The translations under genes were made by a program, and so were the position numbers. From Anaeromyxobacter diazotrophicus (GTDB lineage Bacteria > Myxococcota > Myxococcia > Myxococcales > Anaeromyxobacteraceae), in NCBI RefSeq assembly GCF_013340205.1, contig NZ_BJTG01000005.1, positions 248,001-312,000 of the forward strand: 64,000 bases of DNA, given 5' to 3'. Every line of letters starts with the position of its first letter. Position 1 is the stretch's first letter. The notes under the pieces are model-generated. The model had not been told where the DNA came from. It ran no database searches and worked only from the letters and a program-made list of their open reading frames with translations. Shown here in pieces: positions 32,634-39,952 of the stretch.

Positions 32634-35600
32634 GTGACAGGGAGAGAGACGACGCGCGGGCGAGTGCCGCTGGCACTCCTCCTCGCGGCCGCCGGGGTGG
32701 CCTGCATGTCTGCGGCCAGCAAGCAGCCGGCCCCGGCCAACAAGCAGGCCTCGGGCGCGCTCACGACGCACCACACCACCGACGCGACCGGCGCCATCAC
32801 GCTGCGCGACGAGACGGGCGCCGCGATCCTCGCGGGCTCGACGGTGCCCTACAGCCCGGAGAAGACGTGCGGCGGCTGCCACGACGTGGACGTGATCACG
32901 CGCGGCTACCATTTCCAGCAGGGCCGCACCGACGCGACCAACCAGATCGTGGTCTCGGACAGCTTCAACCCCACCAAGCCGTGGCTCCTTTCGAAGGGCA
33001 TGTACGGCAAGACTTGACCCCCGTCGTCCGACGCGAGCCAGTTGGCCCGCAAGAGCAACACGACCTCCACGGCGATGGACAAGACCTCCTACTTCTTCAC
33101 CTTCCAGTGCGGCATCTGCCACCCGGGCGGCGGCCCCACGCAGTACGACCGTGACGGCCAGCTGTACTGGAACGGCACGCAGTTCGGGTACGGCGGCGGC
33201 GTGGCGGCGCTGCCCGACGCCGCGAAGCTCGACGGCGACTACGGCTTCATCGCCCCGAAGAACGTCATGTCCGCCGACGGCCTCACGGTCGTGACCCCCG
33301 CCGGCACGCCCATCCCCGCCGCCGGCTGGAAGAAGAACGGCGTCCTCCAGGCCGACTGCCTGATGTGCCACCTCGCCGGCTACAGCTGGAAGAACCGCGC
33401 CGCTACCCTGGCCGGAGGCGCTGGGCTGCCCGGCGTGGCCGCGTTCAAGGTCGCGCCGACCATGGGCGCCGGGTGGGGCACGGTGACCATCGCTGCCGCT
33501 CCGGCGTTCCCGCCCACCGCCTCCGCGGTCGGTCCGGTGGACTACGCGCTGGGCGTCACCGGCGGCACGCTGGTGGTCGACGCGCAGAACCAGCTGGTCA
33601 TCCCGCTCGGCAAGATCGGTCCGACGCCGCAGGCGAACTGCCGCGGCTGCCACGCCATCCCCGACACGAAGAAGTCGGGCCGCACGCTCGCCGCGACCAA
33701 CGACGTCCACACGGCGGCCGCGATCGGTTGCACCGCCTGCCACCCGAACGCCGCCGGCGTCCCGGGGGGCCGGCTCGAGCACCAGATCGGCAAGGGCGAC
33801 ATCACCATCGGGTCCGTCCGCGACGACCTCGACAACACCGGCCTGAGCTGCGCCGACTGCCACCTGGGCGGCAAGGCGCCGGCGGGGCTCTTCGCGCCGG
33901 ATCCGACCCGGGCGCACGCGTCGATCGCGCCGCTGCACTTCGCCGCGCTCGCGTGCCAGGCCTGCCACGTCCGCTACATGGAGGACGATCCGTCCACCAC
34001 CAGCGTGGACGTCCCCGAGCTGGTCTACGAGATGAGCACCACCGGCTCGCAGAAGGTCTCGACCTGGGATCGCTACTTCGCCTCGGTCGGCCCCGCCGGC
34101 GCGCCCTTCCGGTGGTACCCGGCGGTCCGCTCGTGGAAGGGCAAGCTCACCACCGTGAAGCCGCTCCTCACGGCGTACTACGGCGACTGGCTGAGCGGGA
34201 CGGGGGACGGCGCGATCATCCGCCCGCTTCCGCTGCGCCTCGTCCGCAAGGTGCTCACCGGCGCTTACCCGCCCGGTGGCGCGCGCCTCGGCGCGCTGCC
34301 GCTGACGGGCGGCGGGCCGGATGCCGCCAACCCCGTCCAGTACCGGCGGTCCGACATCCAGGCGTCGCTCACCGCGCTCGCGGCGGAGGTCGACACGGCC
34401 AACGACGACCCGGCCGCGGACAAGACCATCGCGGTGCGGCCCGTGCTGATCCGCGCCGGGAAGGTCTACTACCTGGACGACGCCGGCAAGGTGGAGTTCT
34501 TCGACAGCGCGGTGGCGGAGAGCCATGACTTCGCGATCAATCACAACGTGGTCCCGAAGCGGGATCCGGCCGACCCGTCGCTCAAGCCCGGTCCGTACGG
34601 CGCGGGCGGCTGCACCGACTGCCACTCCGCCGGCTCGACGTTCTTCTTCGGCAAGCAGCTGATCGAGCCCGCGGAGGACGAGTTCCTCGACGCGGCCGGG
34701 ACGGTCCCGAACCCCAACGCCGGCCAGCCGAGGTTCATCGCGCGCTGGGAGGCGATGGGCTACTCGGAGTTCAGGGTGGCGTCGCTCACCGGCGAGCGCG
34801 TCCCGGTCGCCGTCCGGATGCTGGGCAGCGGCCCGGGCAGCACCGTCACCGGCGGCGGGATCGACTGCCGGTTCGCGGGCGGCCTCTGCACCACCACCGT
34901 GGCGCAAGGCAGCGCGCTCGTCCTCACCGCCAACCCCGGCGTCGGGGCCGCGATCTCCTCGTGGGCCGGCTGCACCTCCGTGTCGGCCGACGAGCTCACC
35001 TGCACGCTGTCCGTGGCGGGCGGCGCCACCGGCCTCAACACCGGCAAGGTGGTCACGGCGACGTTCGGCGCCCCGGCGCAGACGACCCCGGTGACCGGCT
35101 CCGGCCTCAACCTGAGCGTGGTCGGCACTGGCTGGGGCACGGTGAGCGGTGGCGGGTTCAACTGCAACCTCGGCACCCAGGGCGCCTGCAACGGCGCGCT
35201 CGCCGACGGCACGCTCGTGACCCTCACCGCGACGCCCGGCCCGAACACGGCGCTGGTGAGCTGGCAGGGCTGCACGCCCTCGGCGGGCGCGCCGGCCCAG
35301 TGCACCGTCACGGTCGCCGGGACCACCGCGGTCACCGCCCTGTTCAGCAACGGCTCCGGCGGCGGCCCGTACTCGCCGACGCAGGCGCTGGTGGTGACCG
35401 TGGGCTCGCTCGTGGCGCACAACACGATCACCGGCGGCGGCATCGCCTGCGCGAGCGGCACGGGCGGCACCTGCCGCATCGACCCGGCCACCGGCTCCAC
35501 CATCACCCTGACGGCGGCGCCGGCCGCCGGCTCGGCGTTCCTGCGGTTCGAGGGCTGCACCTCGACGCCCACGCCGACCACCTGCACGGTGACGATGACC

Positions 35601-35636
35601 CAACCGACGCACGTGACCGGGTACTTCAGCCCGTGA
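32634..35636 (+). CDS. Eight-haem c-type cytochrome lipoprotein with in-frame UGA (candidate selenoprotein, ExtKL-like)
   Basis: One frame of 1000 codons is interrupted only by TGA at 33015-33017 (codon 128). Before it: a lipobox signal (LLLAAAGVAC) and haem site CGGCH. After it: CGICH, CLMCH, CRGCH, CTACH, CADCH, CQACH and CTDCH. The last third holds three repeats of a GGGI-C...GxxVxLTAxPxxGxxxxxWxGC beta-fold. Read alone, the halves are 32634-33017 and 33042-35636, and neither makes a sensible protein. A hairpin suited to a bacterial SECIS lies 15 nt after the UGA. I recall a Geobacter family called ExtKL described as a (seleno)protein cytochrome. The role would be extracellular electron transfer. 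GTG 32634 follows GGAGGGG. Confidence 0.78.
33015..33050 (+). promoter_or_regulatory. Candidate selenocysteine codon and SECIS hairpin
   Basis: UGA at 33015-33017 is followed by GCGAGCC (33033-33039), loop AGUU (33040-33043) and GGCCCGC (33044-33050). This gives six pairs plus one A-C mismatch, with G as the second loop base. The loop begins 22 nt after the UGA. As I recall, bacterial SECIS models ask for a G among the first two loop bases, 16-37 nt from the UGA. Such hairpins also arise by chance in GC-rich DNA. Confidence 0.45.
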
Positions 35637-35682: not shown

Positions 35683-35730
35683 GGACGAGAGCCCGGCCAA
35701 CCCTCCGCGGTGGCCGGGCTCTCCTCGTCC
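35683..35730 (+). terminator. Strong hairpin after the cytochrome gene
   Basis: GGACGAGAGCCCGGCCA (35683-35699) pairs with TGGCCGGGCTCT (35711-35722) and then CGTCC after a 3-nt bulge. The core AGAGCCCGGCCA/TGGCCGGGCTCT is perfect over 12 bp. It lies 46 bp after the cytochrome stop. It also argues against the upstream ATG at 35710 as start of the next gene. Confidence 0.82.
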
Positions 35731-35802
35731 TGGGCAACAGCGGCAATTTGGCGCAGGCCCCGGACGAAACGATGGTCCTGGAATTTGGCTCAAACCGGGC
35801 GG

Positions 35803-37137
35803 GTGAGCGGACCTGGCTTGGCACCTCCCGACATCGCGGCGCTGCCCTTCCTCGGCCTCGGCAGCGAGGGCGCGGTGCGCCAGCTCGCGGATGCGCTGCC
35901 GCACGGGCTGTTCACGACCGACGTCACGGGCCGCATCACCTACTGGAACCGCGCCGCCGAGCGCGTCACCGGCTACACGCGCGACGAGGCGGTGGGGGGG
36001 TACTGCTCGCTGCTCGCCGGCGACGCGGTCCGGGGCTGCGCCTGCGGGCTCGGGCCGATCAAGTGCGGGATGGTCGAGCAGCAGCGCGTCACGAAGACCT
36101 GCACCGTCCGGACGAAGGACGGCCGGCTGCTGCTCATCGTGAAGAGCGCGGTCGCGCTGTTCGCGCCTGGAGGGGAGCCGGTCGGAGCGCTGGAGACCTT
36201 CACGCAGGCGGCGGTCGAGCCCCCCGGCCGTCGCGCCGCGGCCGGGGAGGAGCCGAAGGCGCTCCTCGGCGGGGCCTCCGCGATGGAGGAGCTCCACCGG
36301 ATGGTCGGGCTGGTCGCCGGGTCGGGCGCGACCGTGCTGATCCTCGGCGAGAGCGGCACGGGGAAGGAGCGGGTGGCGGAGGCGATCCACGCCGCCAGCC
36401 CCTGGGCCAGCGGTCCGTTCCTGCGGGTGAGCTGCTCGGGGCTCGAGGACGTCGCGGCCGAGGCGGAGCTGATGGCGAACCTGCGCGCCTCGGCCTCGAC
36501 CGGCGGCGACGATCGCGGGACCTTGCTCCTCGACGAGATCGCCGACCTGTCGCCGCTCGTCCAGCTCCGGCTGCTGCGCGCGCTCGAGGAGCGGGAGCGG
36601 AGGAGCGAGGGGGCGCCGGCGGGGCGGCGGCTGCGCCTGCTCTGCACCTCGAACCGCGAGGTCAAGGGGCTGGTCGACGCCGGGCGCTTCCGGGCCGACC
36701 TCTACTTCCGGTTGGCCGTCTTCCCGCTGCGCGTGCCGCCGCTCCGGGAGCGCGCCGCCGACCTCCGGCTCATCGGCGAGGCCTTCCTGGAGCGCCGCGT
36801 CCCCGCCCCGGAGGGCCGCCACCGGCGGATCCGGCCCGAGGCGCTGGCGGCGCTGGAGGCCTACCCGTGGCCGGGGAACGTGCGGGAGCTGCAGAATGTG
36901 CTCGAGTTCGCCGCGCTCCAGGCCGGGCCGGCTGACATCGAGCTCCGCCACCTCCCGGCCGACGTGCGCGCGCTCGCGCCGGCCAGCGCGGGCGGTCCGC
37001 GCGCCGCCATGCCCGGGCCGGCGGAGATCCGGACGGCGCTCGCGGCCTGCGGCGGGAACCGCGCGGCCGCGGCGCGACGGCTGGGCATCTCGCGGGTGAC
37101 GCTCTGGAAGAGGCTCAAGGGCGAGGGGCAGGGCTGA
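35803..37137 (+). CDS. PAS-AAA+-Fis regulator (NtrC class) without GAFTGA
   Basis: A 444-residue regulator. An N-terminal PAS domain (about 25-125) has LFTTDVTGRITYWNRAAERV and five cysteines (Cys68, 79, 81, 88, 100), suggesting a haem, Fe-S or thiol redox switch. The AAA+ domain has Walker A GESGTGKE (182-189), Walker B GTLLLDEIADL and VNCxxL-like VSCSGLEDV. The sigma-54 contact loop GAFTGA is missing; that stretch reads LMANLRASASTGG. The Fis-type HTH is GNRAAAARRLGISRVTLWKR. GTG 35803 is chosen since the longer frame begins inside a terminator. Next to the cytochrome gene, it is a candidate redox regulator of it. Confidence 0.85.
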   Translation: MSGPGLAPPDIAALPFLGLGSEGAVRQLADALPHGLFTTDVTGRITYWNRAAERVTGYTRDEAVGGYCSLLAGDAVRGCACGLGPIKCGMVEQQRVTKTCTVRTKDGRLLLIVKSAVALFAPGGEPVGALETFTQAAVEPPGRRAAAGEEPKALLGGASAMEELHRMVGLVAGSGATVLILGESGTGKERVAEAIHAASPWASGPFLRVSCSGLEDVAAEAELMANLRASASTGGDDRGTLLLDEIADLSPLVQLRLLRALEERERRSEGAPAGRRLRLLCTSNREVKGLVDAGRFRADLYFRLAVFPLRVPPLRERAADLRLIGEAFLERRVPAPEGRHRRIRPEALAALEAYPWPGNVRELQNVLEFAALQAGPADIELRHLPADVRALAPASAGGPRAAMPGPAEIRTALAACGGNRAAAARRLGISRVTLWKRLKGEGQG

Positions 37138-39488: not shown

Positions 39489-39613
39489 CGCCAGGTCGAG
39501 GCGCGCGCGGCCGCGCCGGGCCGCTCGCGGCGGCCGGCAGCCGTGTCCCTCGCGGGAACAAGCGCGTGCGCGCCCCGGCGGGTCGTGCTACTCGGACCCG
39601 AGGAGGAGACGGC

Positions 39614-39952
39614 ATGGGCGGCACGGTGGTGGTGATGCACGCGGCGGAGCTGGGGCGCGGGGACGAGGTGCTCGGCGCGAAGCTCGCGGGGAGCTTCCTG
39701 CGGACGCTCGCCGCGGTGGAGCCGAAGCCCGAGGCGATCGTCTTCTACAACGCAGCCGTGAAGCTCCTCGCGCCGGAGTCGGCCGCCCTCGAGGCGCTGC
39801 GCCAGCTCGAGGACGCGGGCGTCGAGCTCCTGGCGTGCGTCACCTGCCTCGAGCACTTCGAGCTCACGGAGCGCCTCGCCCTGGGAGAGGTGTCCAACAT
39901 GCGCGACATCGTCCAGCGGCTGAACGCCGCCGCGAAGGTCCTGACCGTGTAG
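39614..39952 (+). CDS. DsrE/YedF-like protein of the selenium-metabolism-linked family
   Basis: A 112-residue cytosolic protein. AIVFYNAAVKLLAPESAALE, QLEDAGVELLACVTCLEHFE and LTERLALGEVSNMRDIVQRL match the C-terminal DsrE-like domain of YedF, which is genomically linked to selenium use. The Cys pair CVTC matches the family's CGTC. The usual N-terminal TusA-like domain is absent. AGGAGGAG precedes the ATG at 39614. It lies about 4 kb after the UGA-containing cytochrome and may support selenium or sulfur handling. The biochemical role of YedF is unproven. Confidence 0.78.
   Translation: MGGTVVVMHAAELGRGDEVLGAKLAGSFLRTLAAVEPKPEAIVFYNAAVKLLAPESAALEALRQLEDAGVELLACVTCLEHFELTERLALGEVSNMRDIVQRLNAAAKVLTV

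Follow-up and report, generated by a model that had tools for sequence, protein, structure and literature searches.

A gene for a multihaem c-type cytochrome of Anaeromyxobacter diazotrophicus, contained in a 64,000-nucleotide stretch of contig NZ_BJTG01000005.1 (the window, whose coordinates are used below unless a locus is named), is interrupted by one in-frame UGA. The question that this locus raises is whether the codon ends a broken gene or specifies selenocysteine (Sec) and, in the latter case, what kind of protein would carry a Sec residue amongst its haems.

Reading frame and haem sites of the gene

Translation of 32634-35636 with the UGA read through gave 1000 residues followed by the terminal stop, confirming the single 1000-codon frame proposed by an earlier sequence-only reading of this DNA: the sole internal stop is the UGA at 33015-33017 (codon 128), the eight CxxCH sites begin at residues 79, 159, 242, 336, 366, 406, 441 and 660, and the UGA falls between haem 1 (79-83) and haem 2 (159-163). 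The frame is also unchanged across the UGA, with intact homologues on both sides in 42 other genes. The gene starts with GTG, with GGAGGGG some 9 nt upstream. Its product had been labelled a lipoprotein, which is plausible but unproven: the signal peptide is clear, whilst the lipobox, GVAC, is an imperfect one, and in the homologue from Anaeromyxobacter soli its Cys is missing. The features of the locus are as follows (OTR, octahaem tetrathionate reductase; A3, the alignment used for conservation).

32634..35636, + strand: candidate octahaem selenoprotein gene, 1000 residues with the UGA read through (homologues intact on either side of the UGA)
32634..32705, + strand: signal peptide and possible imperfect lipobox, Cys24 (sequence reading, N-termini compared)
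32868..32882, + strand: haem site 1, CGGCH, residues 79-83 (invariant in A3)
33015..33017, + strand: in-frame UGA, codon 128, putative Sec (translation and homologues)
33033..33050, + strand: bSECIS-type hairpin with its loop at 33040-33043, starting 22 nt past the UGA (homologue covariation)
33108..33122, + strand: haem site 2, residues 159-163, counterpart of OTR haem 2 by order
33357..33371, + strand: haem site 3, residues 242-246
33639..33653, + strand: haem site 4, residues 336-340
33663..33674, + strand: D344-x-x-K347, aligned with the OTR D-x-x-K (hhalign; kept in 12/12 Sec members of A3)
33729..33743, + strand: haem site 5, residues 366-370
33849..33863, + strand: haem site 6, residues 406-410
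33954..33968, + strand: haem site 7, residues 441-445
34611..34625, + strand: haem site 8, residues 660-664
34806..35633, + strand: C-terminal divergent InlB B-repeats (PF18998), three stretches
35710..37137, + strand: adjoining PAS / sigma-54 activator / Fis regulator (its link to the cytochrome is inferred)

Selenocysteine machinery, homologues and the hairpin

The window genome holds selA, selB, a tRNA-Sec gene and selD: selA and selB both lie on contig C8, the tRNA-Sec gene scores 76 bits against a threshold of 47, and selD has an in-frame UGA of its own (G000:C2:35154-36080, L042). The genome is thus fully equipped for Sec insertion. Co-occurrence with selA was also tried as a discriminating test and proved uninformative: nearly all carriers of the cytochrome gene have selA, and its presence does not discriminate because carriers without the UGA are mostly found in genomes with selA as well. 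No selA was seen in three UGA genomes and in a few non-UGA ones, whose assemblies are possibly incomplete.

More is to be learnt from the UGA column itself. Two genomes of the same family, one of them a single contig (G009), have UGA at the same codon in genes whose proteins are 69% and 55% identical to the window protein, and together with loci from further searches (24 of them from a scan of named genomes) 43 genes from several phyla, the window gene included, were checked and have UGA in this context. They include genes of Geomonas, Citrifermentans and A. soli, and others on contigs labelled Deferrisomatales, Desulfobulbaceae, Syntrophobacterales, Eisenbacteria, Clostridiales and Deltaproteobacteria. 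Three homologues (L062, L066 and L069) have Cys at this column, whilst others, mostly from genomes with selA, have Ser, Gln, Tyr, Phe or Leu; given these replacements in related genes, Sec is dispensable for the fold. When genomes were searched with profiles, the family turned up in 4 of 277 from the Geomonas class, in 80 of 395 from the phylum to which the Syntrophobacterales locus belongs (tens of them with UGA) and in 5 of 194 from the Myxococcota group. The conserved part spans approximately 690 residues with eight conserved haem sites. In a protein tree UGA is scattered over all main branches, with Cys rows, Tyr rows and a Ser/Gln clade each standing beside UGA rows, a distribution that suggests an old Sec with repeated losses. 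The window and G009 proteins group in this tree with those of Geomonas and Citrifermentans, with which they have InlB repeats in common, and not with that of A. soli; horizontal transfer between Anaeromyxobacter and Geobacteraceae is likely to have taken place.

Several variants of this architecture were also observed. Loci L135-L149 (e.g. L136:913, L135:962) form a second, longer subfamily with approximately 1000-1240 residues and seven haems past the UGA, the motif G-F-G-A-W-U-P-P-S-Y-R-Q-L-A and the hairpin CCGCC-AGUU-GGCGG; neither of the two members tested reaches any NCBIfam cut-off. In L055 and L151, with approximately 16 haems, the Sec octahaem part is followed by more haem sites in one chain, and L063:9511-11688, from a genome in which no selA was found, has Phe in place of Sec and ends in a fused thioredoxin domain.

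The hairpin claimed for 33033-33050 is present (GCGAGCC-AGUU-GGCCCGC). It has one A.C mismatch in its stem. The published bSECIS model calls for a loop of 3-9 nt with G in the first two positions, a distance of 16-37 nt from the UGA and a minimum free energy of at most -7.5 (PMC13188914), and the window hairpin fits it, with a 4-nt loop in which G stands second and is followed by U, a distance of 22 nt and -9.6 kcal/mol. Taken on its own, however, the hairpin is weak evidence, since a simplified, perfect-stem form of the same model accepts 178 of the 1066 TGAs (17%) in this G+C-rich window, and the fold energy is nothing out of the ordinary for a sequence of such composition (z -0.57); as stand-alone proof of Sec it was rejected, SECIS-like hairpins being common by chance in the window. 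A search of Rfam at this position gave no SECIS family match, only one sub-threshold match on the opposite strand.

It is the conservation of UGA and hairpin together, and not the hairpin itself, that exceeds chance. Hairpin and UGA occur together in 42 of the 43 UGA genes (41 of the 42 others besides the window gene), and in these the Q-L/V-A codons read CAG-TTG/GTG-GC within a stem-loop 16 or 22 nt past the UGA. Over 22 distinct hairpins, 25 cells had both sides of a pair changed as against a shuffled mean of 7.1 (0/500 shuffles), and the true stem register beat every slid register. In the first eight non-UGA homologues examined the hairpin was absent from all eight, with the Q-L-A residues kept in most, where the leucine codon is CTG, CTC, TTA or CTT. 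The TTG within the window hairpin is the only TTG amongst the 70 leucine codons of the ORF. L140 and L147 replace the loop U with G (AGGU), a change that the bSECIS model also permits (PMC13188914). One non-UGA homologue that was located later, L126, still holds CAGTTGGC and is perhaps a case of recent Sec loss.

These observations also bear on the simplest alternative, namely that the UGA is a true stop, whether through a pseudogene, a sequencing error or a short protein with translation restarting downstream at TTG 33042. By default a UGA does end translation, and a TTG-initiated ORF does begin at 33042; yet this TTG sits within the hairpin, which explains the codon, the UGA recurs in the single-contig genome G009 and in 41 further genes, the reading frame is preserved on both sides, and the signal peptide and haem 1 are conserved along with the remainder of the protein. 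We therefore consider a true stop to be very improbable. The Sec reading advanced as a candidate from the window sequence has gained strong support from the sel genes, the UGA/Cys column and the covariation of the hairpin, and UGA128 is very probably read as selenocysteine, a reading that is nearly certain as far as sequence can show.

Resemblance to octahaem tetrathionate reductase and the proposed role of selenocysteine

In order to place the protein, structure and profile comparisons were used. The predicted model has a mean pLDDT of 67.5 and a pTM of 0.71 and is poor near the Sec (pLDDT of approximately 50 or below); a second, single-sequence prediction (pLDDT 32) was of no use. The single significant PDB match of the model is 1SP3, the Shewanella octahaem cytochrome OTR (Foldseek E 3e-4), on which this model of moderate quality superposes with a Z of 11.4 and an rmsd of 5.2 over 327 aligned residues. 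Comparison with TIGR04315 proteins by hhalign gave a probability of 99.5% (E 1e-22) spanning haems 4-7, and local profile alignment of the N-terminal half paired haems 1-5 in order; the local alignment was used, as a global profile alignment to OTR gave an implausible N-terminal register and was discarded. Membership of the OTR subfamily itself (TIGR04315) was rejected, with the window protein scoring 16.7 bits and its best full-length relative 39.5 bits against a cut-off of 375. By haem order and predicted fold the family is thus OTR-like and lies outside the curated subfamily, and it is because of this distance from the cut-off that we file it as OTR-like rather than as OTR.

Sequences of the OTR family contain an invariant Cys in the motif NNFC ahead of haem 2 and an invariant D-x-x-K-H-G past haem 4. 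We take this Cys and the Lys of the D-x-x-K to be the active-site cysteine and the haem-ligating lysine of OTR, by the residue numbering of 1SP3. The haem of the OTR active site is ligated by a lysine that lies outside any CxxCK motif (PMC12285233). K347 of the window protein aligns with the OTR lysine by sequence, the D and K are kept in 12/12 Sec members of A3, and the members that lose the Lys (L051 and L067) are also without Sec or Cys. As is the case for the OTR Cys, the Sec lies between haems 1 and 2, although the Sec loop itself could not be confidently aligned with the OTR cysteine. One TIGR04315 gene has UGA (L109:1187-1189, G156:C33) in exact place of the codon for the NNFC cysteine, which is invariant elsewhere, and selA is present in its genome. 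The location of Sec between haems 1 and 2 in both groups speaks for Sec taking part in catalysis next to the active-site haem: we infer that the Sec is equivalent to the OTR cysteine and near the active-site haem, and analogy with OTR suggests that selenium is probably at the catalytic centre of these haem enzymes.

A different role for the Sec, structural or in assembly, protection or dimerisation within an octahaem protein that serves as an electron carrier and not as an enzyme, would be in keeping with the presence of Ser, Gln, Tyr, Phe or Leu instead of Sec in related genes whose haem sites are all retained, with the many multihaem cytochromes that are carriers and with the surface location suggested by the InlB repeats. 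The pairing of Sec with Cys at this column, the UGA of L109 at the OTR cysteine and the retention of the D-x-x-K together with Sec all speak against this role, as do the fusions to cytochrome b and the high ratio of protein to haem, which suit enzymes (PMC7096707); we judge it unlikely.

The fusions in question concern the C-terminal parts of the family. TIGR01583 (formate-dehydrogenase gamma) is over its cut-off in L061 and L121, and PF01292 is found in L054, L058, L059 and L061; a cytochrome b of the formate-dehydrogenase-gamma type is the usual quinol-oxidising anchor. InlB-type repeats are present in the window and Geobacteraceae proteins, a MYXO-CTERM-like tail in A. soli and a thioredoxin domain in one relative, and in the window protein the InlB repeats stand where other members have their cytochrome b domain. 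The quinol-fed membrane enzymes may hence be the older form, with a surface or outer-membrane form present here.

The window neighbours of the gene are a sigma factor, an anti-sigma factor, Metal_resist, the sigma-54 activator, a cation antiporter, YedF and NnrS. The DsrE-type part of YedF, some 4 kb downstream at 39539-39952, matches TIGR03527 ('selenium metabolism protein') with 114.4 bits against 110. A regulator homologue of 54% identity lies divergently beside the A. soli copy (L053:8263-9714), and a scan for sigma-54 promoters found a strict site upstream of the A. soli copy only; the adjoining sigma-54-dependent activator suggests regulated use of the cytochrome. Clustering of neighbourhoods revealed no operon conserved across phyla, the gene usually standing alone, and no neighbouring gene names a substrate.

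Another reading of the substrate has the octahaem enzyme work on nitrogen oxides (nitrite, hydroxylamine) instead of sulfur or selenium compounds. To our knowledge no nitrite reductase contains selenocysteine, and the profile matches to NrfA in the PDB, which together with the inclusion of NrfA and HAO types in the superfamily favour such an enzyme, are limited in similarity to a short stretch. OTR has been reported to reduce nitrite and hydroxylamine, according to a reference given in a passage of PMC8840924. Activity on nitrogen oxides appears quite unlikely to us.

Taken as a whole, the locus is best explained by a Sec-decoded UGA in the gene of a secreted, OTR-homologous octahaem cytochrome that would act as a reductase with Sec in its active site, an explanation that we regard as decidedly probable. 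UGA128 would be decoded as Sec through the adjacent bSECIS hairpin by SelA, SelB, tRNA-Sec and SelD, and the product would be a secreted octahaem c-type cytochrome working as a periplasmic or surface reductase fed by quinol or by cytochromes. By analogy, haem 2 would be the active-site haem, presumably ligated by Lys347, and Sec128 would adjoin it as a nucleophile or redox partner, as the Cys ahead of haem 2 in OTR is thought to do. Some relatives may draw electrons from quinol through their fused cytochrome b, and the window protein from periplasmic cytochromes; the most likely substrates would, as a guess, be sulfur or selenium compounds such as polythionates or oxyanions.

Comparison with known selenocytochromes and related systems

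Known Sec cytochromes are few, namely ExtKL, the GSU2204-type protein and rare OTRs, and we know of none in which the function of Sec has been established. In an inventory of 119 selenoprotein families dated May 2026, the multihaem-related entries are ExtKL, the GSU2204 family and TIGR04315, and no entry has the motif of the window family; the 2006 selenoproteome of Anaeromyxobacter dehalogenans lists no cytochrome. In the full-length members tested, the octahaem part reached the cut-off of no model in NCBIfam release 20, a PHROGs search gave no match, and no description of the family was found in the open-access journal literature searched. Provisionally, a widespread family of octahaem selenocytochromes has apparently gone undescribed. 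More tentatively, these proteins could constitute a large undescribed selenoenzyme class in which Sec either acts at a c-type haem of an octahaem reductase or serves as ligand to that haem. In many anaerobes a fused cytochrome b would supply the reductase with electrons from the quinone pool, and in Anaeromyxobacter and Geobacteraceae the protein would have been repurposed as an enzyme of the cell surface. We place this proposal somewhat short of probable; if true, it would mean selenium-haem catalysis in the respiration of sulfur or selenium oxyanions. If indeed a selenoprotein, this would be among the commoner unannotated ones, with a family member in approximately one fifth of the sampled genomes of one anaerobic phylum, and standard gene calling would truncate it at the UGA. 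The family would tie selenium demand to respiratory haem enzymes and offer a testable model for Sec beside haem.

The sequence-only reading had pointed to ExtKL and to an extracellular electron-transfer conduit, and neither suggestion was supported. Geobacter has a pentahaem protein, ExtKL, that is predicted to be a selenoprotein (PMC5877670, PMC6148476). The idea that the window gene is ExtKL itself, or a selenocytochrome of ExtKL type from an extracellular electron-transfer cluster like those of Geobacter, has in its favour that ExtKL is a genuine predicted selenocytochrome (PMC5877670; PMC1914089; NF040886 in PMC13188914). The window protein gave no match to NF040886, however, the best score in the genome being 22.8 bits elsewhere against a cut-off of 250, and separate true ExtKL genes with their own UGA accompany the octahaem gene in the genomes G061, G248, G245 and G069. 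ExtKL furthermore has five haems with the Sec downstream of all of them, in the motif IPDGUPTPNR (L101-L104), whereas the window protein has eight haems and its Sec past haem 1. Membership was rejected because the score fell short of the curated cut-off and because some genomes have ExtKL and the octahaem gene as two distinct genes, and we hold this identity to be extremely improbable. Neither porin nor ext genes (extHIJKLMNOPQS) were found beside the window gene; with no adjoining porin-cytochrome genes and a predicted fold resembling an octahaem reductase, the conduit is not supported.

Set against known systems, the protein is like ExtKL in being a multihaem c-type cytochrome with an in-frame UGA, in some of the same genomes, whilst ExtKL is pentahaem, with its Sec past the haems, another motif and another family model. 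Like ExtKL, the GSU2204 family (NF041027) is listed among predicted selenoproteins and contains CxxCH; it carries a beta-barrel annotation, and the window protein gives no match to it. Formate dehydrogenase gamma / cytochrome b561 (TIGR01583, PF01292) is represented by the domain fused C-terminally in several family members, though the window protein is without such a domain. The closest likeness is to OTR: eight haems in matching order with the last far downstream, a D-x-x-K past haem 4 and, between the first two haems, a Cys or in rare cases a Sec (L109). The two differ in that the Sec of the window family lies approximately 31 residues ahead of haem 2 and the OTR Cys 10, in the flanking motif GKWUPPS..QLA and the greater length of the protein, and in the C-terminal cytochrome b, InlB or MYXO-CTERM parts that characterise the window family.
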